Source: Polynucleobacter necessarius
GTDB taxonomy: Bacteria > Pseudomonadota > Gammaproteobacteria > Burkholderiales > Burkholderiaceae
Assembly (NCBI RefSeq): GCF_900095215.1
Contig: NZ_LT606949.1
Location: forward strand, 62,001-126,000
Direction: 5' to 3'
Length of the DNA stretch: 64,000 bases
In this document: piece after piece, positions 1 through 64,000 of the stretch
Position numbering within the stretch: the first letter of the stretch is position 1
Layout of the letters: the number at the start of each line of letters is the position of its first letter
The notes under the pieces: model-generated
Databases searched by the model: none
The model's input: the letters and a program-made list of their open reading frames with translations, nothing else
What the model was told of the DNA's origin: nothing
Made by a program: the position numbers and the translations under genes

Positions 1-506
1 TGGCTTTTTCTGGCTTACCCGATTCCAAAAATAAGGCGTCTTGATTGCTGAGAGTCTCGGCATAGTTTGGTCGCAGGGTAATGGCAGTTTCATAGGCCTC
101 GTTAGCCTCAATATTTCTCTCGAGGCTTTTTAAGGCGTTCCACCGATTATTGTGAGCCTCTGGAAATATTGGGATCGTACTCAATGGCCAGATCAAAAAA
201 ATGAAGTGCTTCTGAAAATTCGCAGAGTGCGTTATGCGTCAATCCTAAATTACTTAATGTGTGTGGAGAATTGCGGTGAATCAGATTTGCTTGGTTTAAA
301 AAATCCAATGCACTTTTGTAATCTTGTTTTTGATATGAGCGAATGCCCAAAAGATTAAGCGCATCCACATTTTTTGAATCTAGTGCGTAGGCATCTAAAA
401 AAAGTTTATCCGTTTCTTCGAGCTTGCCTTGTTGAAGCAATCTCAAGCCATTTTGAAAAATGAGTTGAGATTGCGTCTGTGTTGCTTGGGCAATATTTGA
501 GGACAA
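1..506 (-). pseudogene. TPR-repeat protein, frameshifted, 3' end outside window
   Basis: Tetratricopeptide-repeat protein, function unknown; TPRs are helical protein-binding scaffolds. The readable N-terminal part (506 down to 147) has about three degenerate TPR units, with helix pairs such as NVDALNLLGIRSYQKQDYKSA and SPHTLSNLGLTHNALCEFSEA. The frame then closes at a stop, while a neighbouring frame continues the repeats (..RPNYAETLSNQDALFLESG..) to the window edge, so a one-base indel lies near 150-165. The only in-frame start at the 5' end is TTG at 506, one base after the mscL stop, so the true start may also be lost. The repeats resemble those of the SPINDLY-type gene at 5205. Seen: repeats and frame change. 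Inferred: decaying gene. Confidence 0.7.
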
Positions 507-507
507 A

Positions 508-931
508 TTATTTTTTTAAGCTGTCACGCATCTCACGAAGTAAGACCACATCCTCCGGAACTGGTGGGGGAGGGGGTGCATCCATTGGTCGAACTTTGTT
601 GACCACCTTGACCATTTGGAAAATAACGAAAGCCAACAGGATGAAATTAATCGAGATGGTAATGAAATTGCCATAGTCAAAAATCGGCACTCCTGTCTTT
701 TTGAGAGCGTCAAATGTTCTCGGCACCCCTTCTGGGACATGTCCGAGGACGATAAAAAGGTTCGTAAAGTCGATATGGCCCCCTAAAAAGGTGGACATTA
801 CCGGCATAACGATGTCATTTACTAGAGAATCGACGATTTTTCCGAAGGCGCCGCCAATAATGACGCCGACTGCCAAAGCAATCACATTACCCTTGACGGC
901 AAAGTCCCGAAACTCCTTTAAAACGCTCCAT
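508..931 (-). pseudogene. mscL: MscL large-conductance mechanosensitive channel, frameshift at codon 2
   Basis: MscL is an inner-membrane homopentameric channel that releases solutes on hypo-osmotic shock. The body from residue ~14 on is intact: TM1 motif [20 protein letters not shown], periplasmic loop, TM2 and a C-terminal helix. Family members start with roughly [27 protein letters not shown]. Here the ATG at 931, preceded by AAGGAAGG, is followed by an extra G. Reading from that ATG gives M-E-R-F-K and stops after 14 codons, whereas the +1 frame gives [16 protein letters not shown]. The only in-frame start downstream is GTG at 885, which would remove the amphipathic N-terminal helix. Loss of an osmotic safety valve fits an intracellular lifestyle. 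The lesion is seen; non-function is inferred. Confidence 0.8.
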
Positions 932-977
932 AAATGCCTTCCTTTGAATTTAGATCCAGATTAACCCCATAACTTTC

Positions 978-1005
978 TTGCTTACCCCACTTTTTACTTT
1001 AAAAT
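978..1005 (+). promoter_or_regulatory. Candidate sigma-70 promoter for petABC
   Basis: TTGCTT (978-983) and TAAAAT (1000-1005) are separated by 16 bp and lie 55 bp upstream of petA. Both hexamers are close to consensus. No transcription data; prediction from sequence only. Confidence 0.5.
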
Positions 1006-1060
1006 CCTACCTTTAAGCAATTTCCACCCATAAATACCCTTTTCTAGGAATTTTGTAAAA

Positions 1061-1663
1061 ATGAGTGACAAGCCCTGTATGGACAAGGATCGCCGCAACT
1101 GGTTGATCGCCACTGCGGCGGTTGGAGGCGTAGGCGCAGCCGCTGCCCTCTACCCTTTTGTGGAGAGTTTTGAGCCTTCTGAGCGCGCGAAAGCCGCTGG
1201 AGTCGCTGTTGAAATCGATATCGCTGGTATGCAGCCAGATGAGATGAGAATGGTTGAATGGCGCGGCAAGCCTGTTTGGGTGGTTCGTCGTACTCCTGAG
1301 CAAGTTGCTGAGTTATCCAAGATCGATAGCGAATTGGCTGACCCAGATTCATTGCGTGATCCAGCTCAATTTACGCCTCCATATGCCCAGAATCAGTGGC
1401 GCTCTATCAAGCCAGAATACCTTGTAGTTGTTGGTATTTGCACCCATTTAGGCTGCTCCCCAACGCCAAAATTCGAGGCGGGCGCTCAACCATCCTTGCC
1501 AAATACTTGGCCAGGTGGCTTCCTTTGCCCATGTCATGGCTCCATATTTGATATGGCAGGCCGTGTATTTAAAAACAAACCAGCCCCAGATAACCTTGAA
1601 GTGCCGCCACATATGTATTTGAGCGACACCAAGATTCTGATTGGCGACGATAAGAAGGCCTAA
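1061..1663 (+). CDS. petA: Ubiquinol-cytochrome c reductase, Rieske iron-sulfur subunit
   Basis: Rieske [2Fe-2S] protein of the cytochrome bc1 complex; it takes an electron from ubiquinol at the Qo site and passes it to cytochrome c1. 200 aa. An N-terminal D-R-R-N-W-L (twin arginine, residues 10-15) precedes a hydrophobic anchor at ~16-35, as expected for a Tat-exported, membrane-anchored Rieske protein. The two cluster-binding loops are CTHLGC (~127-132) and CPCHGS (~156-161), giving the 2 Cys/2 His ligands plus the disulfide pair. It is first in petABC, with a good promoter at 978-1005 and 10 bp before petB. Intact, with normal family length. Confidence 0.97.
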   Translation: MSDKPCMDKDRRNWLIATAAVGGVGAAAALYPFVESFEPSERAKAAGVAVEIDIAGMQPDEMRMVEWRGKPVWVVRRTPEQVAELSKIDSELADPDSLRDPAQFTPPYAQNQWRSIKPEYLVVVGICTHLGCSPTPKFEAGAQPSLPNTWPGGFLCPCHGSIFDMAGRVFKNKPAPDNLEVPPHMYLSDTKILIGDDKKA

Positions 1664-1673
1664 GGAGAGATAA

Positions 1674-3074: not shown

Positions 3075-3106
3075 TTTAGACACCAAAAGAGAAACTAGGA
3101 ACTAGT

Positions 3107-3880: not shown

Positions 3881-3979
3881 TTGAGTTTGGTGAGCCCTGT
3901 GTCTGGGGCCCATTGGTAAGAAGATTTAACGCTGCTGTGCGTTTGTTGTATTGAAGTAGAAATTTAAGGAAATAAATTT

Positions 3980-4591: not shown

Positions 4592-4620
4592 GTTTTCCTA
4601 GCGGCTCACGACGAGTCAGT

Positions 4621-5028: not shown

Positions 5029-5036
5029 GCTAAAAT
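5014..5036 (+). promoter_or_regulatory. Candidate promoter of tRNA-Thr
   Basis: TAAAAT at 5031-5036 ends 10 bp before the mature 5' end of the tRNA. The hexamer that would be the -35 falls inside sspB and is poor by either spacing. Only the -10 is convincing. Confidence 0.35.
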
Positions 5037-5046
5037 ATCAACCGTT

Positions 5047-5122: not shown

Positions 5123-5128
5123 AATTCT

Positions 5129-5163: not shown

Positions 5164-5204
5164 TTTTCAGCGGGCCTTGCTAATTAATAAATTAGAATTT
5201 TCAT

Positions 5205-7028
5205 ATGCACGTACTTATTAATAATCTAATAACACTGGCAGTAGGCAATCTCCAAAATGGAGATTTGGAAAGTGCAGAGCGATTACTCAAGCAGTCATTG
5301 ACTTTGGCCAAAAAGAATTCAGAGGTGTTGCGTTTATTGTGCGTTACATATGCCTTTAAAAAGGATTTGCAGGCGTCATGAAAGGCGCTAGATAAAGCAA
5401 TTAAAGTTGATGCGAATAATTGGCTGGCCCATAGTAATATCGGCAATGTGCTTAAAGACTTCAAGCAATTCGATGCGGCGTTAAAGGCTTATCAAAAGAC
5501 AATAGCCTTGCAACCAAATTATGCAGAGGCTGATAACAACATAGGCAATCTACATCAGGATTTAAATCGTTATGAGGATGCGGTAAAAAGCTATGATCGC
5601 GCCATTGCATTGCAGCCAAATTATGCAGAGGCTTATGGCAATGCGGGTAATGCGCTTAAGAAATTCAATTTACTTGAGCTTGCCCTGGCGGCATATGAAA
5701 AGGCTATGGCATTGGGTTGGGACAATGAGTTTGCTTTAGCCGCCTATCTAAGCTGCAAGATGCAGTTGTGTGACTGGGGTGGAAGTAAGGGGCGACTTCA
5801 GAAGATAGAGCGGGGTGATATTGCCCGCAAAGACTTGTTTTATCCTTTTCACATCCTTTCTATTTGCAATTCACCTGAAATAATTAGGGATGTGACTCAA
5901 AGCTATATGAGTGCAGAGTACCCCGCGAAAAGTGATTTAGGTGGACTTGGTAAAACCATTAGAAATGAAAAAATTCGTCTGGGTTATTTTGCTCCAGACT
6001 TTAGAAATCAGGCTGTTTCATTTTTAATTGCTGGATTAATTGAAGCGCATGACAAAGATCGCTTTGAAGTAATCACCTTTTTTATGGGCTCAGATAGGTC
6101 TGATGAAATGCATGAGCGTCTAAAAGCCAGTTTTGACCAATTTATAGATGTGTCATCTAAAAGTGATCTTGAAGTTGCCAAGTTAGCAATGGAGATGAAG
6201 ATAGATATTGCCATTGATCTTGGTGGAATTACTCAGAATTCTCGCCCGAGTATTTTTGCTTATCGCGCGGCTCCAATTCAGATTGGTTATATCGGTTATT
6301 TGGGGACGATGGCTGCTTTCTATTTCGATTACATCATTGCTGATGAGATAATTATTCCGCCTGACTGTAGGGATGCGTATTCAGAGAAAATTATCTATTT
6401 ACCTAGTTATCAGGCTAACGATCCTAAGCGCAAAATTTCAGAAAGAATTTTTACTCGTGAGGAGTTTGGTATACTCAAGGATTTATTTGTCTATTGTTGC
6501 TTTAACAATAATTACAAATTCACTCCAAGTATTTTGGATAGTTTGGTAAAAATATTGTTGTGGGTTGATAAAAGCATAATGCTTCTTCATGCGGAAGATG
6601 ATACGGTAAAGAGCAATTTGCTACTGGAATTTGGTGATCGTGGAATTGATGCATCCAGAATATTTTTTGCAGAACGTTTGCCGAGGGCGGAATATTTATC
6701 TCGTTACCGTATAGCAGATTTATTTTTAGATACTTCGCCATACAATGCAGGCACTACAGCTAGTGATGCGATCTGGGCTGGATTGCCGGTTCTCACATTC
6801 CTGGGAAAACCATTTTCGTCTAGGATGGGTGGAAGCCTACTAAAGGCCGTTGGTTTGCCTGAACTGGTTTGCAGTTCTCAAGATGAGTATGAAGAGTTGG
6901 CACTTGCGCTTGGATTGGATTTGCCTCGAATTGTTGCCCTTAAAGAGAAGTTGGCTGCCAATCGGTTGAGAGCGCCTTTGTTTGATATAGAGTCATGTAA
7001 CAGAAGCTTGGAAGATGCCTTTGAGTAG
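5205..7028 (+). pseudogene. TPR / SPINDLY-type O-GlcNAc transferase-like protein, in-frame TGA
   Basis: Glycosyltransferase-41/SPINDLY architecture: N-terminal TPRs, including two near-identical units ending LQPNYAEA, followed by a catalytic-type domain. That domain contains IRLGYFAPDFRNQAVSFLI, IDLGGITQNSRP, QIGYIGYLGTM and the near-C-terminal LFLDTSPYNAGTTASDAIWAGLPVLTF (quoted with gaps), matching the family's UDP-sugar-binding half. Homologues are cytosolic and glycosylate proteins; the substrate here is unknown. From ATG 5205 the frame is interrupted at codon 59 by TGA (5379-5381), after which the same frame continues TPRs without further breaks to 7028. A GTG at 5448 could restart a 526-aa protein lacking the first TPR. 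Seen: nonsense codon. Inferred: recent pseudogene. Confidence 0.8.
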
Positions 7029-7134
7029 GCTTATAGACTGTATATAAATGGATTGCCCGCAGAAAATATTTTTATTCAATAATGTTCTGTGGTCTTAAAA
7101 AATTTCTCTTTCGCCAATAAATTAATTCAACTTG

Positions 7135-8454
7135 TTAAGTTTTCTCTATTTGTGTTTCTGGTAGATACTTAATGGCGATTGTCGCGCTAATTGCTAGAAA
7201 AATAGTTGGATACCACAGACCCGCAACACTACTGTCCCAATGTTGATTTATCCACGTCACAATCAATGGAAGTAGTCCACCAATCCAGCCCGCGGCTAGG
7301 TTATGCGGAAGTGTTGCCGCACTATTTCTGGATCTAGCTGGCAATAACTCGGCAAGTAAGGCAGTTTGTGGGTCTACCACTAAGGCCAGTATTGCCGATA
7401 AGCCAATTAGAATGATTCCAAGCAAGATTACGGATAAGTTGTTTCCATCTTTTGCATTTACTCCAATCTTCTCCAGCAAATCAAAGGCTGGAAGAGTAAG
7501 TAGCGCACCGAATATCAATCCACTAATTACAACTGGTTTCCTGCCAAGCTTGTCAGATAGCCAGCCCGCCGAAATAGTGAGCGGTAGGAGGGCAAGCGTA
7601 GCGTAGATGCTGAGTTGATCTGCAAGTGCTGTTGAAATCTGCACTGTTGTTTTTAAAAATATGGATGCATAAACTTGAACGCAGAAAAATAAAATGACGC
7701 CGCTTGACGAAACGCAAAGAAAAAGTAAGAACATTCTTTTTCTGATTTCAGCATCCCTAAAGTTATTGAGCAGTTGCGATTCAGTTTTTTTTTGACCTTG
7801 CTCTGTTAGTTCTAAAAATACATGCGTCTCCTCTAATGCCATTCGGACTTTAAATGCAATCATCAGTAACAAGATCGAAATCCAAAATGGCACACGCCAG
7901 CCCCAGGCCTGAAATTCTTCTTGTGATAGGTAGTGTCTAAGCAAGGCAATTTGCAAGGTGGAGACTAGGATTCCTAGTGGCCTCATGAGCTGGAGGAAGC
8001 TGGTTTAAATCCTCTGTATTCATTGCCGGTATGCTAGGTGAGGTGACTTGCGCTTCCACCGATTGCGCCGCCTGCATAAAGCCATTGGAGAAGGCGTAGG
8101 CTGACAAGCAAGATGGGTGCCCATATTCCAACTTGTGAATAGGTGAGTAAAAATCCTACGCTTACCGCCGTAATCCCCATTAAGGCAATGGTGATCATAA
8201 ATACAGGCTTTCGGCCGATATGATCGCCCATGGAGCCAAATAGAGCTGCTCCAATGTGTCTGACCACCATACCAACCCCAAAGGTTGCCAGGCTTGCCAA
8301 AATGGCTGTATTCGGGTCGCTGACTGGAAAGAAGAGGGGCGCAAAAACCACCGCCAGACTGGCAAAGGTCAGAAAGTCATACCACTCTAAAAAGGTGCCA
8401 AAGCAGGCTGCAATAGCCACTTTTCGATAGGAATGAGAATCCTTTTTTTATCAT
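7135..8454 (-). pseudogene. MFS transporter (metabolite:H+ symporter type), multiple lesions
   Basis: Major facilitator of the metabolite:H+ symporter type. The N-terminal part reads AACFGTFLEWYDFLTF, then FGVGMVVRHIGAALFGSMGDHIGRKPVF, the conserved loop-2/3 motif of this family (quoted with a break). The C-terminal half (7986-7135) has about eight hydrophobic segments with the mirrored GWLSDKLGRKPVV motif. Lesions: the ATG at 8454 leads into an A7 run after which the frame must change to reach the protein; TAG at 8036-8034 closes the first half; a further frame change near 7990-8000 is needed to join the second half. The transported substrate cannot be told; relatives carry dicarboxylates, proline, betaine or shikimate. 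Convergent with the SPINDLY pseudogene. Confidence 0.88.
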
Positions 8455-8625: not shown

Positions 8626-9205
8626 ATGAACCAAGACCAAATTACCGCTAAATTGTCCCAAATTAGCAACAAAGGCCTAGAGGCTACATTTTCTTTGAGC
8701 GAAGCTGCTTTGGAAAATGCTCAAAAATTGGCTGAGTTGCACTACGCAGCTTCTAAAGATGTATTGATAAATGCTCAAGCTGGTATTCAACAAGTGTTGA
8801 CTGCTAAAGATCCAAAGCAAGTTACTGAGATTGTTACTGTCGATTCTTTTCAAGCCTCTGGTAACCAAGCTGTTGCTTATCAAAAGAAACAAAGTATTGC
8901 GTGATAGCAATAAAGAATTTGTAAACGTAGTTGATGCCAGCATCGACCAATTGCAAGACGGTTTCCAAGATTGGATCAACACTGTAGCCGCTAACGCGCC
9001 TGCAGGCTCTGATGCTTTCTTGTCTTCATTCAAGACTGTATACGGTAGCGCATTGCAAGGTTTCGAGCAGTTCCGTGCCGCTAGTACAGAAGCATTAGCA
9101 GCTGCAGAGAAAACTGCTGAGCAAGCCATTGAGTCTGTACAAGGTCAAATCGCTCAAGTGCAGAAAGCCGCTACACCTGCATCATGTAGCCGTAAAGCTG
9201 CTTAA
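8626..9205 (+). pseudogene. phaP: Phasin (PHA granule-associated protein), frameshifted
   Basis: Phasins coat polyhydroxybutyrate granules. ATG 8626 follows GGAGA. The first frame gives the phasin_2-type helix with TFSLSEAALENAQKLAELH and a stop after ..YQKKQSIA near 8904. The second frame resumes at NKEFVNVVDASIDQLQDGF and ends ..VQKAATPA-x-SRKAA at 9205, rich in Ala, Gln and Glu as in family C-termini. A one-base indel near 8885-8910 separates them. The combined length (~190 aa) matches burkholderial phasins. A terminator follows. Neither phaC nor phaR is in the window, so granule formation itself cannot be judged. Confidence 0.85.
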
Positions 9206-12991: not shown

Positions 12992-14308
12992 CTAATGGTC
13001 TTCTGACTTGGAATGCGAGGCGAATAATTTAGGTAACAACTTAATCAAGGCGTCACGCTCAGCGCCATTCGAGTGTTGCAGCGCATGGAGTGAACCATGT
13101 AAGAATTTGTTGGTAAGACCTTGCGCCATGGCATTGAGGACTTCTTGTGGATCATCGCCGCGCATTAAACGCTTCATCGCGCGTTCGAGTTCCAGTTGGC
13201 GCAGTCGCTCACCTTGTTGCTGAATATCCTGAATCAGTGGCACAGCGTTGCGGCCTTGCATCCAATGCATGAAGTTGCCAACGCGATCTTCGATAATCGC
13301 CTCTGCTTGACTAACGGCTGCTTGACGCAAGTTGGCGCCCGTCTGAATCATGACTCCCAAGTCATCCACTGTATAACGATAGATGTCATCGAGACCGGAA
13401 ATTTCTGGTTCAAAGTCGCGAGGCACCGCTAAGTCAATCATGACCATCGGCTTATGGCGCCGTTGTTTGAGAGCGCTTTCCACCATGCCAAGGCCAATAA
13501 TGGGTAGAGAGGATGCGGTACTAGAAACAATGATGTCGAATTCATGCAGTCGCCCCGGTAGCTCTGAGAGCTTGAGGGATTCGGCTTTGACATCTTGCGC
13601 GGCAATGGAGTCTGCTAATTCTTGACCACGTTCAATGGTGCGATTCGCGATCGCGACATTTTTAGGTTTTCGCGCGACAAAATGCGTCGCGCATAGAGTG
13701 ATCATGTCACCAGCGCCAATAAACAAAATCTTTTGATCTGAAATTTTTTCAAAGATACGCTCAGAGAGGCGAACCGATGCTGCTGCCATTGAAATGGAGT
13801 GAGCGCCGATTTCTGTTGAGACGCGCACCTCTTTGGCTACCGCAAAAGTTTTCTGAAAGAGTTGGTTGAGGTAAGTTCCCAAAACACCAGCATCATTCGC
13901 GGTGCGAACCGCATCTTTCATTTGACCCAAAATTTGAGTTTCGCCAATCACCATGGAATCTAATCCGCAGGCGACTCTGAAAGCGTGTCGTACCGTATCG
14001 GATTGCGGGAAAGAATAAAGGTGGGGCTCCAGACTACTAGGAGCGAGTTGCTGAGTTTTAGCGAGCCAATCAAAAGTCGCTTCATGCAAGATTCCAGCTG
14101 CATTGTCATCGTTGGCGGCGCAATAGACCTCGGTGCGGTTGCAGGTCGACAAAATAGTGGCTTCGGGCAGCCCAGCATGATTCGCGCCAACTAAATGTTG
14201 GCGAAGATCGTGCAATGCTTCTTGAAGAAATTCAGGGTCAAAGGCGACTTTTTCCCGAATGGCGACCGGCGCTGTGTGATGATTGATGCCGAGTGTCAAC
14301 AACTTCAT
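12992..14308 (-). CDS. hemA: Glutamyl-tRNA reductase
   Basis: First enzyme of C5-pathway tetrapyrrole synthesis; reduces Glu-tRNA(Glu) to glutamate-1-semialdehyde with NADPH. 438 aa. Start [20 protein letters not shown]; catalytic cysteine in [15 protein letters not shown] domain with [10 protein letters not shown]-terminal dimerisation helix with [14 protein letters not shown]. It heads the hemA-prfA-prmC unit. Its ATG is only 1 bp from a divergent ATG at 14310, so any promoter must lie inside that small reading frame. Intact. Confidence 0.96.
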
Positions 14309-14309
14309 A

Positions 14310-14666
14310 ATGGCGATTATAGATTTGATGGCAGCATTAATTGGGGTATCAATGGGGTTTTTGGCTTTTCTGGTGATTGGGGGTATTTCTGGGGTGTCAG
14401 CCTGGATTGTTTATCCCAGACCTTCCTTCGGGTTTAAACCTCTAAAAATCTTGATTGCCTTCTGAATTGGATTTATTTCAGCTACCGCAAGCTCGTATTT
14501 GGGGCAATACTGTGGCTTTTTCCAGTCTGCGCAAATTCTGGAGTGGGGCACTGCTATTTTTGCTTCTTGTGCACTGGCCCGTGTATTTACAGCCCTAGAT
14601 AAAGAAGTCCGTCTGAGCGCCCTTTACCAGTCTATAGGGCGGCTTTTGTGTTCCGTAAGCCATTGA
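14310..14666 (+). pseudogene. Small hypothetical membrane protein with in-frame TGA
   Basis: Not recognised. From ATG 14310 it encodes a strongly hydrophobic N-terminus ([20 protein letters not shown]), then KPLKILIAF and TGA at 14463-14465. The same frame continues with more membrane-like sequence (IGFISATASSYLGQYCGFF, then AIFASCALARVFTAL) to 14666, overlapping the 3' end of ung. This looks like a 3-TM protein of ~110 aa cut by a nonsense codon. The divergent position beside hemA and the protein-like hydrophobicity on both sides of the stop support a former gene; the 3' limit is uncertain. Confidence 0.45.
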
Positions 14667-15355
14667 TTGGCTATTGTGAAGTGATTGCAGCTTGCTTTGG
14701 CACCGGGTTCTAAAAAAGGCTTATCTGTTTTGTATACGCCCAAGCCTGAAGGGTGGGAGGATTGCAATACAAATTGGTCTTGGCCATTTTCAATGAGAGG
14801 TAGTTTGGATTGGGCATGACCACCCCATAGCATCCACACTAAATGTGGTCTAGCTTTAGATAGCCCGCTGATTAAATGATCAATGAGGCTTTTCCAGCCA
14901 AGGTTGGTGTGGCTACCAGCTTCACCAAGTTTGACGCTCAGGGCAGTATTTAGAAGGAGTACTCCTTGTTTAGCCCATTCGTGCAGATCACCATTGGGCA
15001 AATGACCAAAACCCTCCAACGCAAGCGCTTTGCTGATATTGCGTAGCGAACTGGGAAATTCTCGAGAGTGCACTGCAATCTCGGCAGGAATAGAAAAAGC
15101 CAATCCTTGCGCCAAGCCTGCTGAATGATAAGGGTCTTGTCCCAAAATAACTACTTTTACAGAATCTACGGGAGTAAGTTTGAGTGCTTTAAAAAAGTGT
15201 TGGGGCTCAGGTCTCACCATACTCGGATCAAGATTCAGAGCGGTGTGCAAATTCTTTTCGAGAGATTGCCAATCCGATGATTCGAAATAGTTTCCGAGCA
15301 ATTCTTGCCAATCACTTGGGCTATCGTCTTTTGAAAATAAGGCTTTCAATTTCAA
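14624..15355 (-). CDS. ung: Uracil-DNA glycosylase
   Basis: Family 1 UDG; excises uracil from DNA to start base-excision repair. 243 aa. Motif GQDPYHSAGLAQGLAFS carries the catalytic Asp and uracil-stacking residues. WMLWGGHAQSK corresponds to the central motif, and SSHPSGLGVYK to the minor-groove Leu loop. Directly downstream of the M61 peptidase remnant with no gap. Intact, so cytosine deamination repair is apparently kept despite the erosion around it. Confidence 0.95.
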   Translation of the reverse strand: MKLKALFSKDDSPSDWQELLGNYFESSDWQSLEKNLHTALNLDPSMVRPEPQHFFKALKLTPVDSVKVVILGQDPYHSAGLAQGLAFSIPAEIAVHSREFPSSLRNISKALALEGFGHLPNGDLHEWAKQGVLLLNTALSVKLGEAGSHTNLGWKSLIDHLISGLSKARPHLVWMLWGGHAQSKLPLIENGQDQFVLQSSHPSGLGVYKTDKPFLEPGAKASCNHFTIANQWLTEHKSRPIDW

Positions 15356-17135
15356 TCAAGCATCTTTCTTTAGCGTTAATTCATATTGTGTGGGTGCTTG
15401 ATAGGCTTGCAAGGAAACCATGCGCTCATGCTCAATATCGTCTCGATAAAAAGTGATGCGAGCATGGGCATTTTCAGAGAGGCTACCCAATACTTTGTCC
15501 GAGCGCGGGCTGGTAACTCGCTGTCCGTCAACGCTCGAGAGCAAGTCCCATGCTGCTAGGCCTGGGGCTTGAGCAATCCCATCATCCAGTACATGGGCGA
15601 TCTTCAGCCAGCCATTTGCATCTGTATGGCGCATACCAAATTGCAACTTCAATTTTTCGAGGGTTTATAGGGTTTTTGATTTTACCACAACCCGGTTTGA
15701 GCCAATCCATTTTTGTAGCGGAATATCTTCAACGCCAAATACATAACGGGTTTGTATCCCATTCCAAAGTTTGCTAAAGCCGGCTCCTAGCAATTCAAGA
15801 ATGGCTTCATCTAGGCCACCTTCCGAAATGCCATCTAAAGTGATGCCGTGCTTGCGCCAAATGAGCCGCATGAGATCATCAAGTGATTGTTTATTTTGAG
15901 TGAACGCGCGAATTTGCAAAGCAAGGCCGAGCGCTAGTAAAGCCCCCTGGCCGTAATAACTCACGACTGCATTGGGGGTGTTTTCATCGCTCTGGTAATA
16001 CTTAGTCCATGCGTCAAATGAGCTGTCCAAGGCTTTGTTTCTGACGGTCATGACCGCGCAAGATGCCATTCCAATTGCCTGCAATAAGCTTTAAAGAAGT
16101 CTTGATATCAATTCGTTTACTGCGCAATAGTTGCAGATCATCGTAGTAGCTAGTAAAGCCCTCAAACAGCCAGAGTAAGCGTGTGTGATTGCGCTTTGCT
16201 AGAGCATAGGGCTGAAAAGCTTTTGGTTGAATGCGCTTAACCAACCATGCATGAAAGTACTCGTGACTGCATAAACCCAAAAACTCCCTGTAGGCAGACT
16301 CTTCAAAGAGGATATTTTCCTGCGGGATTTAATCTCGTCGACAGAGTAACGCGGTGCTATTACGATGTTCAAGGCCGCCATAGCCATTTAGTACTGCATT
16401 GACTAAGAAGAGATACTCTCCAAATGGGGCGCGCTTAGATTTGGGTTCGAAGAGATTAATAGTGGAGGTGCAAATAGCCTCAAGATCGTCCGCGCGGCGT
16501 TTAGCATAAACGATGTGATTACATCCCTGAATAGCCATGCGATGAGCAACCCCATTTGATTTCCAGTGAACCATTTGAAGCTCACCCATCGCGACAGGGT
16601 GATCAAGTAGGTCATCATAATTTTGTGCCAAATAAAAACCAAAGCCACGATCATCAGTTTTGACTGCTCTTAAGGTGGTTTGAATCATCCAATGGTCGGC
16701 AAAGGCAACTTTAGGCTCGGCAATGGCAAGAGAACAAGGTAAATGCTCTTGTCCTTTGACCGCAAGACAGAGGCTGCTTGCGTTAAAGAAGGCGCGCTCA
16801 GTATCTAGATAGGCTGCACGTACTGATGAGTCGAATGTATAAACGGTAGAGAGTACTTCTATAGGGCCATTGACTGGTGGCAAGCGCCAATGATCGTTAT
16901 CAATCCGTTCGCGCGGAACTTTTTTCCTAGTGCTGTCCGCTGAAAAAGCCTCAATTGACTCTATATGCTTGCTAAAGTCCTGAATGAGATAACTGCCTGG
17001 TATCCAGGCTGGCATTTGTAAACCCCGACCCTAAGGGTCGGGGTTGGCAATATGCAGTTTGACGCGAAAGTGATGACCATGAAGGTCGACCGGCCAGACC
17101 GTATATTGAATTACAGGTAAGGCGGCAGAGTTCAT
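15356..17135 (-). pseudogene. M61 family glycyl-aminopeptidase-like protease with PDZ domain, heavily disrupted
   Basis: M61 peptidases are zinc metalloproteases with a C-terminal PDZ domain. ATG 17135 lies 6 bp past the dsbC stop. The frame stops at TAG 17033-17031 and continues in phase with MPAWIPGSYLIQDFSKHIES (17015 on). It is then broken by at least three frame changes, near 16330, 16270-16200 and 16050-16080. The zinc site HEYFHAW is legible in one fragment (~16260-16240), and the PDZ-like segment WLKIAHVLDDGIAQAPGLAAWDLL lies in the last (15652-15356). Complete family members are ~590-620 aa, matching the 1780-bp span. Clearly non-functional: at least four lesions. Confidence 0.9.
17021..17045. 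repeat. 25-bp near-perfect palindrome in M61 pseudogene
   Basis: AACCCCGACCCT (17021-17032), one central A, then AGGGTCGGGGTT (17034-17045): 12 complementary pairs with one centre base. It contains the TAG that interrupts the M61 frame. There is no T run beyond it, so it is not a classic terminator. Confidence 0.85.
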
Positions 17136-17140
17136 GATGA

Positions 17141-20332: not shown

Positions 20333-20683
20333 TTAAATGGCTTTGGCGGCCTTTTCTAGGCGCTTAGACATTTCTTCATAGCGTTTTACAGCCATCTTGG
20401 TAGGAAGCACCTCTTTTTTGCGGCCACCTCCATTAGCTGCCATTTTGATGTAGCCCATCGCGCTGAGATTTTTTAAGCGACCATGTAAGGTGGCTTGTGA
20501 TCCTAAGCCGGCGATAGAAATAATGTCACCAACCAAAATAGCTTGTTTTGCATGGGCACACACAACAATCTTATCGAGCAAACTTTCTTCTATGGAGTCT
20601 AGCTTCTTCCCCGGGTTGATGCGATCTATGGCATCAATCAGGTTCAGAAACTTGATGTAAGACGCAGTTTTTACAGTGGATAT
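20333..20683 (-). pseudogene. Winged-helix-like small DNA-binding protein, start codon apparently lost (ATA)
   Basis: 116 codons of open frame resembling a small MarR/winged-helix regulator: helix-turn-helix-like AILVGDIISIAGLGSQATLHGRLKNL, a wing with AANGGGRKKEVLPTKM, then a basic C-terminal helix YEEMSKRLEKAAKAI. The protein-like frame extends upstream through ESLLDKIVV, INPGKKLDSIE and TASYIKFLNLIDAIDRI to the codons ATA-TCC-ACT-GTA (from 20683). No ATG or GTG exists between this point and a TAG further upstream. An ATG-to-ATA change at 20683-20681 is the simplest explanation. A TTG at 20581 could give an 82-aa product. The function as regulator is unknown. Confidence 0.5.
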
Positions 20684-20795
20684 ATCTCTGACGTTTGTTG
20701 AGTGCTAGCTACAGGGTTAATATAACTGTATTCCCTAGGCACGATTTTAGCAATTGACCCATATCAATTAAAACAATTAATCCATACTGATAGTA

Positions 20796-27685: not shown

Positions 27686-27723
27686 AAAGAGAGTCATGAG
27701 CTACAAAGAGAGTCATGAGCTAC
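27686..27723 (+). repeat. 19-bp exact tandem duplication spanning RBS and start codon
   Basis: AAAGAGAGTCATGAGCTAC occurs twice head-to-tail (27686-27704, 27705-27723). Each copy carries a GAGAG ribosome site and ATG. The first ATG (27696) is out of frame with the gene and ends after 14 codons at TGA. Confidence 0.95.
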
Positions 27724-32917: not shown

Positions 32918-33006
32918 GTTTGATATTTGACCACTAGTTTTTCCAATTTCAGACCTGTATCTGTTATGTTTATGCCCTGAATCCACCTAATTTCTGGAAT
33001 TTACCC

Positions 33007-54066: not shown

Positions 54067-54564
54067 TTACTTTGGCTTGTTTTTGAGTAGCTTCTCAATA
54101 GAGGAGCGTAAGCCCGAGTCTGGCCCTAATTTTTCTAAAAGAGACTCCCAGGACTTTTTCGCCACATCATTTAGTCCCGTGGGCTTTTCGCGTTGATCTA
54201 GGCGCGGCTTCACTTCCCACGCGGGTGGGGCGGGTTTTACCCGCACTTTCACTGCGCTACACTGCAGGCCATATTTCCATAACTCATTGATTAGGCTGGG
54301 TAAAATTTGCTGTAGGCGGCTGGCAATACTAGCGCTACTGACTAGTAAAACAAGCTCATTTTGCGAGCCAGAGCGCCATCCAGTCTCAATTTTCGAACTC
54401 AGATGCTCTAAATCAAGATTTGCGAGTGCCAAGTTAATGCTTGTCTTGAGTTTGGCTAGATCCTCGGTTTTGGCCAAAATACCCCCTAGACCATGGGACT
54501 CTCGTAGGTAATCCATCCAGTCGTGTGCTGTGTGCTTGCGGGATGATTTTGGGGTAAGGTTCAT
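54067..54564 (-). CDS. DUF721 (DciA-like) protein
   Basis: 165 aa. DUF721 proteins include DciA, which helps load or operate DnaB helicase in bacteria lacking DnaC. The KH-like core is visible at ~45-112 (ALANLDLEHLSSKIE, NELVLLVSSASIASRLQQILPSLINEL, in pieces), followed by V-K-V-R-V-K-P-A and a basic Pro-rich tail. Genomic position lpxC-DUF721-secA is conserved in many beta/gammaproteobacteria. Divergent from secA. Function by family only. Intact. Confidence 0.75.
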   Translation of the reverse strand: MNLTPKSSRKHTAHDWMDYLRESHGLGGILAKTEDLAKLKTSINLALANLDLEHLSSKIETGWRSGSQNELVLLVSSASIASRLQQILPSLINELWKYGLQCSAVKVRVKPAPPAWEVKPRLDQREKPTGLNDVAKKSWESLLEKLGPDSGLRSSIEKLLKNKPK

Positions 54565-54575
54565 AAAACATGGGG

Positions 54576-54604
54576 TTGCGGGTGATAAACTGAATGACTT
54601 AATT
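54576..54604 (+). promoter_or_regulatory. Candidate secA promoter
   Basis: TTGCGG (54576-54581), 17-bp spacer, TTAATT (54599-54604); 14 bp upstream of the secA ATG, implying a very short leader. No secM-like arrest gene is present. Confidence 0.4.
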
Positions 54605-54618
54605 TTCTTCGATATCCC

Positions 54619-57468: not shown

Positions 57469-57529
57469 CCTAGCTATCTAGGTATATCAATTTCGAAGAT
57501 TATGAGTCCTTATATGCAAAACATTGCAT
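57469..57529. promoter_or_regulatory. Two inverted repeats upstream of the AOR operon
   Basis: CCTAG-CTAT-CTAGG (57469-57482) and ATGCAA-AACA-TTGCAT (57514-57529) lie in the 166-bp gap between secA and the AOR ferredoxin gene. They are operator-like, but no regulator gene is adjacent. Inference only. Confidence 0.3.
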
Positions 57530-57550
57530 TTATTGGCAAAAGGAATCGAC

Positions 57551-58026
57551 ATGCAAAAGTCACTGCTCATCAACGCAGACAAATGTACTGGGTGTCTTCA
57601 ATGTGAGATGGCCTGTAGTTATGAGAACTACGGGGTTTTAATACCTCTAAATCGCGCATTAAGGTATTTGAATTTCATAAAACCGGCAAAAAGGTGCCAT
57701 ACACCTGCACCCAATGTGATGAAGCATGGTGCTTGCAAGCTTGCCCTGTTGACGCAATTCGAGTGGACTTGGTTACAGGCGCTAAAGTGGTTTCTGAAGA
57801 TACTTGTGTTGGGTGCAAGGTCTGTACGATTTCTTGCCCTTTTGGAACTATTAATTATGTTCAGAATACCGGTCAAGTACAAAAGTGCGACTTGTGTGGT
57901 GGCGATCCAGCATGCGCCACAGCATGTCCAACCGAGGCGATTACCTATGTGGATGCGGATTGGACTGGCTTAGACAGAATGCGTGAGTGGGCCGATAAGC
58001 TTGGCAACCAAGATAACGCTAACTAA
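57551..58026 (+). pseudogene. aorA: AOR-associated polyferredoxin subunit (AorA-like), frameshifted
   Basis: Small multi-[4Fe-4S] electron-transfer subunit paired with tungsten aldehyde:ferredoxin oxidoreductases in betaproteobacteria. ATG 57551 reads MQKSLLINADKCTGCLQCEMACSYENYG, quoted here only for its first Cys motif (C-x2-C-x2-C-x3-C style). A base appears missing in the TTTT run (57636-57639). One frame ends early, the other gives KVFEFHKTGKKVPYTCTQCDEAW and C-rich motifs VGCKVCTISCPFG and KCDLCGGDPACATACP to 58026. Combined length ~158 aa with four cluster motifs. First gene of the decayed cluster. Confidence 0.85.
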
Positions 58027-58046
58027 AAAAGTATAGGAAAAATATC

Positions 58047-59894
58047 ATGTCATGGGCTGGAAAATTACTCCGCGTTAACTGACGCAAGGGCACTTGCCAA
58101 TCTGAACCTTTGAATATGAAGTGGGCCAAGGAATATTTGGGTTCACGTGGCTTGGCTTCAAAGTATTTTATTGAAGAGGTGGATCCTAAGGTAGACCCTC
58201 TTTCTCCAGAAAATAAAATTATTTGGGCTACTGGCCCTTTAACTGGAACCACAGCATCTACAGCTGGTCGCTACACTGTTGTTACTAAGGGCCCTCTAAC
58301 ATGAGCCATTGCTTGCTCTAACTCTGGTGGTTATTGGGGTGCGGAATTAAAGATGGCTGGCTGGGATATGGTGATATTGCAGGGCAAGTCGGCTAAGCCC
58401 GTATATCTTTATATCGAAAACGATAAGGCAGAACTCATTGATGCTTCTGACTTATGGGGCCGATCTGTTTGGGAAACGGAGCCCACAATCAAAATCAAAT
58501 ATCAGGACCCGCAGATACGAGTTTCTTGTATTGGGCGTGCCGGTGAAAGCCAAGTGCTATATGCGGCGATTGTGAATGACTTGCACCGTGCGGCAGGGCG
58601 TTCAGGGGTTGGCGCGGTGGTGGGCAGTAAGCATTTAAAGGCTGTCGCAGTTCGCGATACCAAAGGGGTTGGCAATCTAAAAAATCCAAAAGCATTTATG
58701 GAAGCAGTGGCGGCAGGTAAGGCGGTGTTGGCTGGTTATGCTGTTACTGGGCAAGGTCTACCTACGTATGGCACGCAAGTATTAATGAATGTCATTAATG
58801 AAGTAGGCGCACCTCCAACTCGCAACCACCAAGATGTTCAGGTTGAGGGTGCCAAAGATATTTCCGCCGAAGCCATGGCGACCCCTCGTGAAAGTGATGG
58901 CAAAGCGCACTCGGTAACCAATCAAGATTTCTTTGCTTGTACCATCGCGTGCGGTCGTATCTCAAAAATCGACGACACCCATTTTTCAATCGAGAATAAG
59001 CCTCAACATATGCACGCTTCTGGTGGGCTTGAATATGAAGCGGCTTGGGCACTTGGTGCGGCGAATGGTGTCAATGATTTGGAAGCTTTGCAATACGCCA
59101 ATCAGCTGTGTAATGAACAAGGTTTAGATCCCATTTCTTTTGGAGCCACCATTGGCGCTGTGATGGAGCGTTATGAAATGGGTGTTTTAACCAAAGAGCA
59201 AATTGGTATTGAGTCTCCATTTGGATCCGCGAAAGCGCTTTGCTATTTGGCTGACATTCCAACTGAGGGCACCGGTTTTGGCAAAGAGATTGGTCTTGGC
59301 TCTGCGCGCTTGACGAAAAAATATGGATATCCAGATCTTTCTATGAGTGTGAAAGGGCAAGAGTTTCCTGCTTACAATGGGCGCGTGATTCAGGGTATTG
59401 GTTTAGCTTATGCCACCTCAAATCGGGGTGCTTGCCATCTTCGCGGCTACACCATTGCATCAGAAGTGCTGGGCATTCCTGTAAAGACTGAGTCAACTGA
59501 AACTCAAGGAAAGCCAGAATTGGTTAAAGCATTTCAAGATGCTACTGCTGCCTTTTATTCGGCGGGCATTTGTATCTTTACGAGTTTTGCATGGACCTTG
59601 GCGGATGTGGCGCCACAACTGCAAGCAGCGTGTGGAGATGAATTCACAGTAGAAAATTTAACGACTATTGGTGAACGCATCTGGAATATGGAGCGAGACT
59701 TTAATAATCGTTCTGGCTTTACAAATAAAGACGATAAGTTGCCTAAGCGTTTGATGGAAGAGGCTGCTAAAACTGGCCCAGGCAAAGGCGTGGTGAGTGG
59801 TTTGGATAAGATGCTTCCTGAGTACTACCAGGTTCGTTGTTGGGATGCTGAGGGTCGTCCAAGCGCCGAAACATTGAAGCGCTTAGGTCTTTGA
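58047..59894 (+). pseudogene. aorB: Tungsten-containing aldehyde:ferredoxin oxidoreductase (AorB-like), two in-frame TGA
   Basis: AOR-family catalytic subunit, oxidising aldehydes (or reducing acids) with a W-bis-pyranopterin and [4Fe-4S]. ATG 58047: MSWAGKLLRVN, then TGA (58080-58082), then in phase [22 protein letters not shown] and [26 protein letters not shown] (58302-58304), then AIACSNSGGYWGAELKMAG and 513 further codons to 59894. The second TGA sits where homologues have Gly (GPLTGAIACSNSGG). FYDH-like pterin regions, RVSCIGRAGES and HLRGYTIASEVLG remain. Full span 615 codons, normal. Two nonsense codons within 86 codons make expression unlikely. Confidence 0.9.
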
Positions 59895-59904
59895 GTCAGC
59901 ATCA

Positions 59905-61168
59905 ATGAAGCATGTCATTTTGGGCAATGGCCCAGCTGGCGTCATCGCCGCGGAAATCATTCGTAAGCGCTCTCCTCATGATCAGATCGTCATGATTGGA
60001 TCTGAGGACGCGTCGCCGTATTTTCGAATGGTAATTCTATTTGCTGATGGGTAATATTCAAGAATCGGGCACTTATTTGCGTAAGGATCCCGATCATTAC
60101 CAAAAACTGCAAATTGAGCAGATAAGCGGGCAAGCTGTTGCTGTTGATCATAAGACAAAGAGGCTAGAGCTCACGGATGGTCAATCTATTCAATTTGACA
60201 AGTTGTTAATTGCCACAGGTTCTGTTCCTGTCCGGCCGCCGATTCCTGGGATTGATTTGCCAGGAGTTCATCCTTGCTGGACTTTGGAGGATGCGCGCGC
60301 AATTGCCAAGTTGGCTAAGCCCGGTTCACGTGTTTTACAAATGGGCGCAGGCTTTATTGGCTGCATTATTTTGGAGGCACTTGCTAGCAGAAAGCTGGAG
60401 CTCACTGTAGTCGAGATGGGTGATCGAATGGTGCCCCGTATGATGACTGCGGTTGCTGGCGGCATGATAAAAAAATGGGTTGAGGGAAAAGGTGTTCAGG
60501 TCTATACCGACACAAAGGTTGAAGGAATTTCCCAATCCGCTAATGGATTGAGCGTCAAACTTTCGAAGGGAAAATCACTGGAGGTCGCTTGAGTAATTTC
60601 AGCCACAGGCGTGCGTCCCAACATTGCCTACCTTCAAGATTCCGGTCTGGAGATAAAGACGGGGATTTTGGTGAATGAGCGGATGCGAACTTCTCATTCT
60701 GATATTTATGCCGCTGGAGATGTGACCGAGAGCATTGATTTTTCAACGGGTCAGCGCATCGTCAATGCAATTCAGCCCAATGCTGCTGAGCAGGCTCGTA
60801 TCGCCGCTATTGCCATGACTGGTGGGAATGCCAACAACCTGGTGGCGCTACAGATAAATGTTTTGGATACATTGGGACTTATCTCTTGCTCATTTGGTTT
60901 TTGGTCCGGTGCCGCAGGAGGAGACCATGTGGAAATCGTTGAGCCGCAGCTGTTCAAATACATGCGACTTGAATTCTTAGGAGATGTTTTGGTGGGGGCT
61001 ACTTGTGTTGGAAGTACCGCCCATATTGGAGTGCTCAGGGGTTTGATCCAAGGCAAGATTGCGCTCGGAGAGCGGGAAGAGACTTTAATGGGTGATCCTA
61101 CTAAAGCGATGGACGCGTATTTGGCGTCAAGACAAGCACAATCTGCGTGGATGAATGCAGCTCTAAGG
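59905..61168 (+). pseudogene. aorC: NAD(P)/FAD-dependent oxidoreductase subunit (AorC-like), frameshift and in-frame TGA
   Basis: Flavoprotein that would couple AOR/ferredoxin to NAD. ATG 59905: MKHVILGNGPAGVIAAEIIR (FAD Rossmann). A base missing at ~60035 changes frame, after which MGNIQESGTYLRKDPDHY, LIATGSVPVRPPIPGI and VLQMGAGFIGCIILEALASR (NAD motif) are legible. TGA at 60590-60592 interrupts SLEVA..VISATGVRPN, then DIYAAGDVTES and ..SAWMNAALR follow. The frame runs without a stop into the MoaD-like segment. 10 bp after aorB. Non-functional. Confidence 0.85.
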
Positions 61169-61423
61169 ATGCAGATTACCTTGAAGTTGTTTGCCAGCTT
61201 GGCAAGCTATTTACCATCCAATAAAAAAAGCAATGTCGCGACGGACATTGACTTGGCCGATGGTAGCACTATTGGTGACGTGATCATTCTTTATAAAATT
61301 CCCAGTAAATCAGCGCACTTAGTCATGGTAAATGGGGTTTATATTCAGCCTGAGGAACGTGATCAATATGCCCTCAAGTCGAATGACGCTCTGGCCATTT
61401 GCCCTCCGGTAGCTGGTCGCTAA
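61169..61423 (+). CDS. MoaD/ThiS-like small protein, C-terminus AGR instead of GG
   Basis: 84-residue beta-grasp protein: MQITLKLFASLASYLP, then ADGSTIGDVIILYKIP, HLVMVNGVYIQPEERDQYAL and SNDALAICPPVAGR. MoaD family members in molybdo-/tungstopterin synthesis carry sulfur on a C-terminal Gly-Gly; AOR-linked copies end PPVAGG as I recall, and here the last residue is Arg (CGC). AGG precedes the ATG, but the upstream aorC frame reads straight through into it. The frame is open, so listed as a CDS, but the loss of the terminal Gly would abolish thiocarboxylation. Possibly a remnant. Confidence 0.6.
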   Translation: MQITLKLFASLASYLPSNKKSNVATDIDLADGSTIGDVIILYKIPSKSAHLVMVNGVYIQPEERDQYALKSNDALAICPPVAGR

Positions 61424-61442
61424 TTCCATTCTGTTTTGCTGA

Positions 61443-61739
61443 ATGCCGCAATTTGAGCGAAAGATGGGCTGCACCCCCGTGGATTTACTGCGCTGGTTGC
61501 CTCAAGCTCTTGGCAGCCTTTATTCCAATACGAGTTTAGTGATAGACGGTAAGACTTGAATAGAGAGCGATGAACCTGAGTTAAGAATTTTTGGGTTTAG
61601 TCAGCAGGTCAGAAAAATTGCGCTTCTGGAGATACCGGTTTTGCTGGTGAGACTCCAGTTCTCTGAAAATTGGACGCAGAGCGATTGCGAGAATGCCCTC
61701 AATCGATTTGATCTTTATACTCGTAGAGGTGGTGGCTAA
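61443..61739 (+). pseudogene. Small AOR-cluster protein of unknown function, in-frame TGA, C-terminal GGG
   Basis: 98 codons from ATG 61443: MPQFERKMGCTPVDLLRWLP, GSLYSNTSLVIDGKT, TGA (61557-61559), then in phase ESDEPELRIFGFSQQVRKIAL, LEIPVLLVRLQFSENW, LNRFDLYTRRGGG and TAA at 61737-61739. It resembles an uncharacterised small protein I associate with AOR operons in betaproteobacteria; not certain. The C-terminal Gly-Gly-Gly is notable beside a MoaD-like gene. Probably a dead gene of the same operon. Confidence 0.5.
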
Positions 61740-61778
61740 ATTGAAGACCCACTTTAAATCTATTTATTGAGTTTTTAT

Positions 61779-63014
61779 ATGACCGTTAATTTACCTCTAC
61801 CCCAAAAAGCCGAACTCAAACCTGTCACAGGTTTCCAGATGGGCATTGCCGCAGCTGGCATTAAAAAGGCAAATCGCAAAGATTTACTTGTAATGACCTT
61901 GGCTCCCGGTTCGCAAGTAGCTGGCGTTTTTACCTTGAATCGCTTTTGCGCCGCCCCTGTCCAGGTTTGTCGTGAACATTTGGCGCAAGAGGGTCGTCAT
62001 GGCGAGATCAGGGCTTTGGTGGTAAATACCGGCAATGCCAATGCTGGAACGGGCGAGTCAGGCATGAAACATGCTTTGGAAACTTGCTCGGCCTTGGCCA
62101 AGGATCTTCAGATTAATCCAGAGCAAATTCTGCCATTTTCAACGGGCGTGATTTTAGAGCCACTGCCAATAGAAAAAATTATTTCCGCTCTCCCAAGGGC
62201 GGTAGCCGACTTGGGTGAGGACAATTGGTTTGATGCTGCTGAAGCCATCATGACAACAGACACTCAGCCCAAGGCTACTTCAGTGACTGTGCAAACGCCT
62301 GATGGTGCAGTAACCATCACTGGTATCTGTAAGGGTGCTGGCATGATTCATCCCAATATGGCAACAATGCTCGGATTTATCGCAACTGATGTAGGATTCG
62401 CGCCAGGTCTCTTGAGTAGTCTCACTCGCGAGATTGCCGACCTTTCATTTAATGCCATCACGATTGATGGCGATACATCCACCAATGATTCTTTCATCAT
62501 CATGGCAACAGGACAGTCTGCGGTGCAGATTAAATCCGTTACGGCTCCTAGTTATGCCATTTTGCGTGACGCATTAATTGCCTTGACTAGAAAGCTGGCT
62601 CAAATGATTGTGCGTGATGGTGAGGGCGCGACCAAGTTTATGACAATTGAGGTTGTTGGTGGCAAAACTGCCGAAGAATGTCGCCTTGTTGCGAAAGCGG
62701 TCGCGCATTCTCCTTTGGTTAAAACAGCATTCTTTGCTAGCGATCCGAATTTGGGTCGTATCCTTGCGGCCGTTGGCTATGCGGGCATTGCAGACTTGGA
62801 TGTCAATCGCGTGCAAATGTGGTTAGGGGATGTTTTGGTTGCTAAAGATGGTGGCCGTAATCCTGACTATCAAGAATCGGATGGTCAGCGAGTGATGCAA
62901 GCTTCAGAAATCACCGTCAAGATTGATCTGGGTCGTGGCGAGGCGACACAAACCATGTGGACATGCGACTTATCGCATGATTATGTATCTATTAATGCAG
63001 ACTATCGCTCATAA
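61779..63014 (+). CDS. argJ: Bifunctional glutamate N-acetyltransferase / amino-acid acetyltransferase
   Basis: ArgJ transfers acetyl from N-acetylornithine to glutamate in the cyclic arginine pathway. 411 aa from ATG 61779 ([20 protein letters not shown]); an in-frame TTG at 61767 would add four residues. [17 protein letters not shown]; autoprocessing [16 protein letters not shown] (cleavage before the Thr); [29 protein letters not shown]. Located after secA (the AOR cluster lies between). Intact: arginine synthesis step retained. Confidence 0.96.
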
Positions 63015-63035
63015 AAGAAAATGATTGTTTGAAAA

Positions 63036-63892
63036 ATGCATGAAAAATTAGATCGCCTTTTAGATCATCTCGATATTTTTTTGCCAAAGCCATTGACTGA
63101 AGAGCAGTGGAAGTCTTCTACTGCCTTTAGATGGCATCGTCGTGACAGTATCTTTGGAAGTATTGGATGTTTACAGCCAGTCAAGTATGTAGCGGATATT
63201 ACTTTCGAGGATCTGCAAAATATTGATCGCCAACGTGACGCGATACGTGATAACACCAAAAACTTTATCCAAAAAAGCCTGCGAACAATATTTTGTTGAC
63301 GGGTGCACGAGGAACAGGAAAGTCCTCTCTGATTAAGGCGAGCTTGCATGAGTTTGCTAGCCAAGGTTTGCGCCTAGTCGAGGTTGAAAAAGAGCATCTA
63401 GCCGATTTCGCCGACATTACCGAACGTTTGGCGGCGCGTCCTGAGTGCTTCATTATTTTTTGCGATGACCTGTCGTTTGAGGACGGCGAATCTGGCTATG
63501 AGGCCATGAAATCAGCCCTAGACGGCTCGGTTTCTGCTCAAGTCGATAACATCTTGATTTACGCCATATCGAATCGTCGCCATTTATTGCCTGAGTATAT
63601 GAAAGATAACGAAGGGTATATGAATAGCGATGATGGTGAAATTCATCCTGGTGAAGTGGTTGAGGAGAAGAGTTCCTTGTCGGAGTGCTTTGGGCTTTGG
63701 CTGTCTTCTTATCCACCAAAACAAGATGAGTATTTGGCGATCGTGTCGCATTGGTTGCAGCATTTTGGTTTGAGTGCTCCGCAAATCGAGGCTGCTCGTG
63801 CCGAGGCTTTGGTTTTGGCTTTAGAGCGTGGCTCACGTTCAGGCCGGGTTGCTTGGCAATTCGCGAAGCACTGGGCTGGCTCAAAGTCTTAA
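63036..63892 (+). pseudogene. DUF815-family AAA+ ATPase, frameshift before P-loop
   Basis: DUF815 ATPases are RarA/AAA-like proteins of unknown role. ATG 63036: MHEKLDRLLDHLDIFLPKPL .. WHRRDSIFGSIGCLQPVKYV, DLQNIDRQRDAIRDNTKNFI. An A6 run (63271-63276) needs one more A to continue as KPANNILLTGARGTGKSSLI (Walker A), then FCDDLSFEDGESGYEAMKSALDG (Walker B region) and SNRRHLLPEYMKDN, to TAA ~63892. The position after argJ and before a NUDIX gene is typical for Burkholderiales. Only one lesion seen; a recent pseudogene, or a sequencing error here cannot be excluded. Confidence 0.7.
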
Positions 63893-63906
63893 GATGATTT
63901 TTCTGA

Positions 63907-64000
63907 ATGAGTGAAATCAATCGACCCATCACTGAAGTGGCGGCGGGAATATTGCTTGATGCTGAAGGCCGCTATCTTTTAGGACAAAGACCAGAGGGAA
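63907..64000 (+). CDS. NUDIX hydrolase (MutT-like), truncated by window end
   Basis: ATG 63907 gives MSEINRPITEVAAGILLDAE and then GRYLLGQRPEG at the window edge: the N-terminal strand pattern of MutT/8-oxo-dGTP diphosphatase type NUDIX proteins, with the QRP-G stretch leading to the NUDIX box (outside). In relatives the order argJ-ATPase-mutT is conserved. Only ~31 residues visible. Confidence 0.7.
   Translation, partial: MSEINRPITEVAAGILLDAEGRYLLGQRPEG

Follow-up and report, generated by a model that had tools for sequence, protein, structure and literature searches.

Genes and features of the window

The stretch of DNA analysed here, referred to as the window, comprises 64 kb (bases 62001–126000) of the single-contig, 1,703,354-bp genome G000 (completeness 99.94%, contamination 0), and harbors both protein genes broken by stop codons and frameshifts and an undamaged gene run reaching from mraZ to secA. 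An earlier note on this DNA had placed it in Polynucleobacter and had read it as part of an eroding genome of the endosymbiont type. The genus is confirmed by SecA, whose best named matches are Polynucleobacter strains at 94–95% identity, and by gene order, both of which agree. The relative G096 is colinear with 63.5 of the 64 kb, in four blocks and at 81.3% nucleotide identity. The largest difference between the two is a segment of about 3 kb with two open reading frames (ORFs) in G096, which is missing near 7 kb of the window.

Lesions were counted by alignment of 66 ORFs of G096 to the window, with stops and frameshifts permitted; as the reference, G096 is intact by construction. Six of the ORFs were left out, namely one antisense to a TPR gene, one tiny ORF, three variable or patchy ones near 5–7 kb and one that is interrupted in relatives. 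One of the three variable or patchy ORFs was restored for the lesion counts, which refer to 61 genes, and the cross-genome comparisons use 60. The genes named in the earlier note, most of them without coordinates, were matched by order and family.

Sixteen of the 61 genes are broken by 32 lesions, consisting of 12 stops, 18 internal frameshifts and two start losses, and a TPR gene at the window edge as well as one doubtful ORF are damaged in addition. Each of the approximately 18 genes listed earlier as damaged carries a lesion, with caveats for the TPR gene, mscL, the winged-helix gene, the 14310 ORF, SPINDLY and bioB. The unbroken 22-kb run from mraZ to secA is likewise recovered: the 19 genes of this mraZ–mur/fts–secA segment (34999–57381, forward strand except for one reverse-strand gene at 54070–54610) show no lesion in 22,179 coding nucleotides (P = 5e-7 per lesion and 8e-4 per gene, for a run chosen post hoc and with lesions inside one gene not being independent). 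The gene names used for this run come in part from the earlier note and are presumed to apply.

The biotin genes, identified by curated models, include bioD (29619–30345, reverse strand), whose frame is still open, and bioF (30328–31568, reverse strand), which is broken by stops at 30603 and 30852 and by a frameshift near 31225. They are followed by bioA (31570–32915, reverse strand), with five internal frameshifts and one near the start, and bioB (32979–34053, forward strand), which contains one stop at 33070 (residue 32) preceding the BioB domain (residues 43–348) and is open thereafter, with 95% identity overall. Adjacent to bioD lie an enoyl-CoA hydratase gene (27717–28487, forward strand) with three frameshifts and an M20 peptidase gene (28514–29557, reverse strand) with one stop, three frameshifts and 49 unaligned reference residues. 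Several lesions are also found in the M61 peptidase gene (15359–17133, reverse strand; three stops and one frameshift) and in an MFS/sugar transporter gene (7130–8445, reverse strand), with a stop at 8036, a frameshift near 8002 and another near the C-terminus. Downstream of secA, the aldehyde ferredoxin oxidoreductase (AOR) cluster comprises five genes on the forward strand: a 4Fe-4S ferredoxin (57508–58023) with a frameshift near 57636, the oxidoreductase itself (58049–59891) with stops at 58080 and 58302, a pyridine nucleotide-disulphide oxidoreductase (59895–61156) with a frameshift near 60037 and a stop at 60590, a ThiS-like small protein (61171–61420) with an open frame, and a last small gene (61445–61736) without a Pfam match and with a stop at 61557.

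The remaining damaged genes carry one lesion each. A phasin gene (8628–9202, forward strand) is frameshifted near 8890, and the DUF815 ATPase gene (63038–63889, forward strand) contains one frameshift in an A tract near 63277. The uracil-DNA glycosylase gene (14598–15347, reverse strand), absent from the earlier list, has a frameshift near 14625 that affects only the last 4%. In mscL (508–928, reverse strand; MscL family match) the sole lesion places the start codon out of frame with the remainder, and a small protein gene without a Pfam match (20336–20687, reverse strand), taken for the winged-helix gene, has lost only its start codon. The hypervariable TPR/glycosyltransferase-41 gene termed SPINDLY earlier (5207–7082, forward strand) has one early in-frame TGA at 5379. 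The N-terminal part of the TPR-type gene at the window edge (1–506, reverse strand), which continues upstream of the window, matches in tblastn pieces a G096 ORF of 743 residues and has its frame broken near 156–172. Finally, the doubtful 14310 ORF (14285–14603, forward strand) contains a TGA at 14463 and is also interrupted in two of seven undamaged relatives (G002 and G024).

In the next 60 kb (G000:126001–186000) 12 of 54 genes are broken, so that the decay is not local to the window. Ten of these 12 were scanned and correspond to a type IV leader peptidase, T2SSF and T2SSE (pilus-type), a sodium:solute symporter, a ketopantoate reductase-like and a FAA hydrolase-like gene, mpl, mtgA, thiL and rsmE. 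The ORFs of this flank were selected by their match to G038, which is a non-independent control there. Within the two regions examined, window and flank, the pattern of many accessory pseudogenes with an intact core holds. The claim that damage is confined to dispensable genes stands for the window but is not absolute, as thiL, mtgA, mpl and rsmE are broken next door and presumed mraZ, ftsI and ftsZ genes in other decaying genomes.

Comparison with other genomes of the genus

When seven undamaged relatives are aligned in the identical way, with 54–59 of the 60 genes found, five show no broken gene and two show one each, the AOR-cluster ferredoxin in G002 and ORF 57 in G024. This corresponds to the locus-by-locus comparison with free-living relatives proposed earlier, free-living being presumed for genomes without a named strain record. 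In size, the window genome with 1.70 Mb lies below its seven close relatives (G096, G038, G099, G002, G074, G024 and G091; 1.90–2.23 Mb). However, G016, one of the seven undamaged relatives aligned, has 1.71 Mb and no broken gene among the 54 found, thus a small genome alone does not bring decay. In six genomes matching named strain records (G035, G039, G080, G007, G071 and G113) bioF, M61 and bioA are full-length and stop-free.

Scans of 186 genomes of the genus for bioF, M61, the Y-family polymerase and bioA yielded a set of seven decaying genomes, in each of which 54–60 of the 60 genes were found. The numbers of broken genes are 13 in G000 (15 including the two lost starts), 13 in G017, 17 in G103, four in G107, five in G116, 11 in G129 and eight in G130. 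Each of the 15 genes broken in the window among the 60 has a broken counterpart in one or more of the six other decaying genomes; nine further genes are broken only in the others and 36 nowhere (Fisher P = 2.5e-8; with the bio and AOR genes excluded, P = 1e-5). The lesions themselves are mostly different: the six other genomes have 137 lesions in the 15 shared genes, of which 128 are separated by more than 3 residues from every window lesion and nine lie within 3 residues of one. This shared breakage is strong evidence against random error and shows that the genes released to decay are largely the same from genome to genome. Across the seven decaying genomes bioA and bioF are broken in all, bioB in five, the M61, MFS, enoyl-CoA hydratase and M20 genes in four each, and bioD in three.

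A few homopolymer tracts have been struck in separate lineages, namely those of bioA (window position 31871) and bioF (31225) also in G129 and that of DUF815 (63277) also in G023, which suggests hot spots of slippage. In G023 two genes are broken, DUF815 and a DsbC-like gene, both by frameshifts, and this genome could be either a still younger symbiont or no more than a variant. The Y-family polymerase (PF00817) has no match in G000; among the other decaying genomes only G107 has it intact, whereas G130 carries a stop in it, G129 retains a short frame and G017, G103 and G116 yield fragments. Loss of the translesion polymerase has reportedly been noted in symbiotic Polynucleobacter. In other decaying genomes, damage also reaches genes which from gene order we take to be mraZ, ftsI and ftsZ. 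In G017 (1.55 Mb) the ftsZ gene (L105, near 7361–7662), examined in one copy, is interrupted by a stop at residue 8 and shifts frame at residue 107, the surrounding identities being 97% and 90%.

Phylogenetic position of the decaying genomes

Trees were calculated with FastTree from nine core proteins and from codon positions 1 and 2 of their genes. In both trees the decaying genomes sit among undamaged ones, which means that decay arose several times. G129 groups with the undamaged G002 with a support of 1.0 in both trees, G017 with G023 and one named strain with a support of 1.0, and G116 with three named strains with supports of 0.96 and 0.998. Support for separating the window genome from G103 is weak in the protein tree (0.40–0.57) and rises to 0.80 and 0.95 in the codon tree; the two genomes may therefore stem from a single origin of decay. 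Inheritance of the decay from a single ancestral symbiont was considered and rejected, as the decaying genomes do not cluster.

Strength of selection and age of the decay

For 35 core genes, the ratio of nonsynonymous to synonymous rates (dN/dS) on the window branch is 0.042–0.048, compared with 0.033–0.037 in undamaged relatives. The intervals are separate when G099 is chosen as the sister and overlap when G096 or G038 is chosen; they are separate for the decaying genomes G129 and G103. For seven broken genes the corresponding values are 0.076–0.092 and 0.048–0.079, with overlapping intervals, and per-gene ratios were too saturated to be informative. The expectation that dN/dS would rise only in the broken genes is not borne out. 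As the ratios of core and broken genes are both far from neutral, the broken genes have a mostly constrained history and their loss is recent. Expressed as neutral time, the excess amounts to about 2% (0–6%) of the branch, corresponding to a neutral distance near 0.016, which is a rough value since synonymous distances are high. From this span of relaxed selection about five stops are predicted in the seven broken genes, and seven are observed.

Loss of biotin synthesis

The biotin pattern is the best lead of the analysis. In a permutation over the 18 dispensable genes that all seven decaying genomes possess, two genes broken in seven of seven give P = 0.007 when weighted by length and 0.0001 unweighted, values softened by the route by which four of the genomes were discovered and by the adjacency of bioA and bioF. 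Seven bioF matches in undamaged genomes that had been flagged for stops contain no internal lesion, four of them having stops only at residues 413–415 and three none. AccB is intact in all 16 genomes searched, and so is a single gene of the biotin/lipoate-ligase family; the need for biotin seems to persist while its synthesis is lost, and biotin must consequently come from outside. The transporter BioY as a possible route led nowhere, as it was found in none of the 16 genomes.

Because bioA and bioF are broken in seven decaying genomes of several lineages, and because bioF is also a pseudogene in the Euplotes endosymbiont 'Ca. Nebulobacter yamunensis', the loss of biotin synthesis may be the most repeatable early step toward obligate Euplotes symbiosis, with the ciliate or its food supplying biotin and the dependence helping to lock the symbiosis. 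We put this forward tentatively, as a proposal with slightly less in its favor than against it. Several observations qualify it. G107, G116, G129 and G130 were found through the bioF scan, which biases the sample for the biotin score, and G107 is known solely through bioF and bioA. Independently of bioF, the M61 and PF00817 scans point, among the matches listed, to G000, G017, G103, G129, G116 and perhaps G130, all with bioA and bioF broken. The bioF stop of G130 lies late (residue 382 of 415), although bioA of this genome stops at residue 62. If G023, which keeps both genes intact, is counted as decaying, the biotin score becomes seven of eight. Furthermore, G011 has one bioA frameshift in a T tract (L163), with the rest of the 47 ORFs in that stretch undamaged and one cut by the edge. 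The literature searched, to which Boscaro et al. 2013 and 2017 did not belong, contains no statement on biotin loss in Polynucleobacter; for ciliate-associated bacteria in general, bioI is one of the genes mentioned in PMC11127453. With this result, the partnership gains a specific nutritional dependence that can be put to the test.

Lifestyle and alternative explanations

The decay is real and filtered by selection, as had been argued earlier: the broken genes recur in other decaying genomes, the core run is clean and relatives are intact. We consider it highly probable that the window stems from a Polynucleobacter lineage that recently became host-dependent, most likely a cytoplasmic endosymbiont of a Euplotes-type ciliate. 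The endosymbiont-type reading is supported by the smaller genome and the many pseudogenes, both as in published symbiotic Polynucleobacter. On the sequence the earlier note was thus correct, and on the lifestyle very probably so. Life in a host, with its osmotic stability, access to host food and small population sizes, would remove selection on accessory genes, and functions set free in this way could include mscL, phasin-based storage, peptidases, transport, aldehyde oxidation, pili and biotin synthesis. Drift would then fix polymerase slips and stops, and the biotin still needed would be supplied from outside. The damage is accounted for by stops and short indels that became fixed in the absence of selection, and slippage contributes, because indels are enriched in homopolymer runs and a few tracts are hit in separate lineages.

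If the stops and indels were instead read or consensus mistakes of sequencing or assembly, core and accessory genes should be struck alike, yet 22 kb of core coding DNA is free of lesions. Six of 19 indel sites do lie in runs of at least five equal bases (10% of random sites), a feature shared by slippage and some sequencing errors, and the single lesion of DUF815 falls in an A tract. However, 12 of the 32 lesions are in-frame stops, several genes carry at least two lesions, all 15 genes tested are broken in other genomes too, and the completeness and lack of contamination of the assembly likewise speak against error, which we regard as extremely improbable. Only slightly less remote is free-living streamlining, or a laboratory-adapted strain dropping unused genes without a host. 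It could draw on the apparently recent loss and on G016, whose small and undamaged genome makes size alone no proof of a host, but a small genome with intact genes, the streamlined free-living type, is not what is found here (16 of 61 genes broken, compared with none of 54 in G016). With no or one broken gene among 60 in seven undamaged relatives, such a load of pseudogenes is not normal among relatives, and biotin synthesis, the Y-family polymerase and pilus-type genes have been lost together.

A further alternative concerns the number of dead genes rather than the lifestyle. Genes with a single lesion (DUF815, bioB, mscL, the TPR glycosyltransferase and uracil-DNA glycosylase) might still make protein through A-tract slippage or internal starts, so that fewer genes would be dead. 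It would suit bioB, which is open past residue 32, highly conserved and has a branch dN/dS of 0.014, as well as the A tract of DUF815, hit also in G023, and the uracil-DNA glycosylase lesion confined to the last residues. On the other hand, several lesions each are found in bioA, bioF, M61, M20, enoyl-CoA hydratase, MFS and two genes of the AOR cluster, and the DUF815 gene is broken in G023 as well as, towards its end, in G116. We hold residual function of the single-lesion genes to be a realistic though rather less probable option.

Against the proposed host-dependent lifestyle, the homopolymer enrichment mentioned above has to be counted, together with several further observations that weaken it or the evidence used for it. 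The repeatability of broken genes overall reaches only P = 0.08 when weighted by length, as opposed to 0.0007 unweighted. The rise of dN/dS in broken genes is not significant in the window genome or in G129, while it is clear in G103 (0.125 vs 0.048), and pairwise synonymous distances of 1.1–1.2 in core genes make all dN/dS values rough. PF00817 is also without a match in G032, a complete single-contig genome of a distant Polynucleobacter with 1.79 Mb, thus this loss alone is no symbiont marker. Host residence is inferred, no host being visible in the sequence. Finally, GC content at fourfold sites in 35 never-broken genes is 0.463 here and 0.351–0.418 in seven close undamaged relatives, and polarised changes on the window branch show an excess from AT to GC. 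The usual trend in symbionts is AT drift, the opposite of this rise. Most of the branch probably predates the decay, and the GC rise is hence not ascribed to symbiosis here. Damage to uracil-DNA glycosylase as a cause of AT drift was dropped, since the lesion affects only the last residues and silent-site GC rises.

Comparison with known symbiotic systems

The value of the genome lies in the early stage of its decay: its gene order and the majority of its genes persist, and lesions can be read singly against a colinear relative. With its several decaying lineages, the genus amounts to a replicated gene-loss experiment. According to PMC11253213 and PMC5632650, symbiotic Polynucleobacter have smaller genomes (1.7–1.8 Mb) and more pseudogenes than free-living ones, and the latter gives 269 pseudogenes for P. 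necessarius. In PMC11253213, symbiotic Polynucleobacter are described as having separate origins, with reduction shaped by drift; the independent lineages it refers to (Boscaro et al. 2013, 2017) resemble the present case in their several origins, drift and genome sizes of 1.7–1.8 Mb.

P. necessarius STIR1, an endosymbiont of Euplotes aediculatus with a genome of 1.56 Mb and 45.6% GC (CP001010; PMC5018217), shares with the window genome the genus, a reduced genome and many pseudogenes; the window genome is larger (1.70 Mb). In 'Ca. Nebulobacter yamunensis', bioF is pseudogenised relative to a free-living sister, like bioF of the window, and PMC9837558 gives it as one of two example genes for this change. 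That symbiont differs in belonging to another genus, and its authors call the differences minor and give 129 predicted pseudogenes for the free-living sister. The kind of system is already known, with the strain and its set of lesions as a further member.

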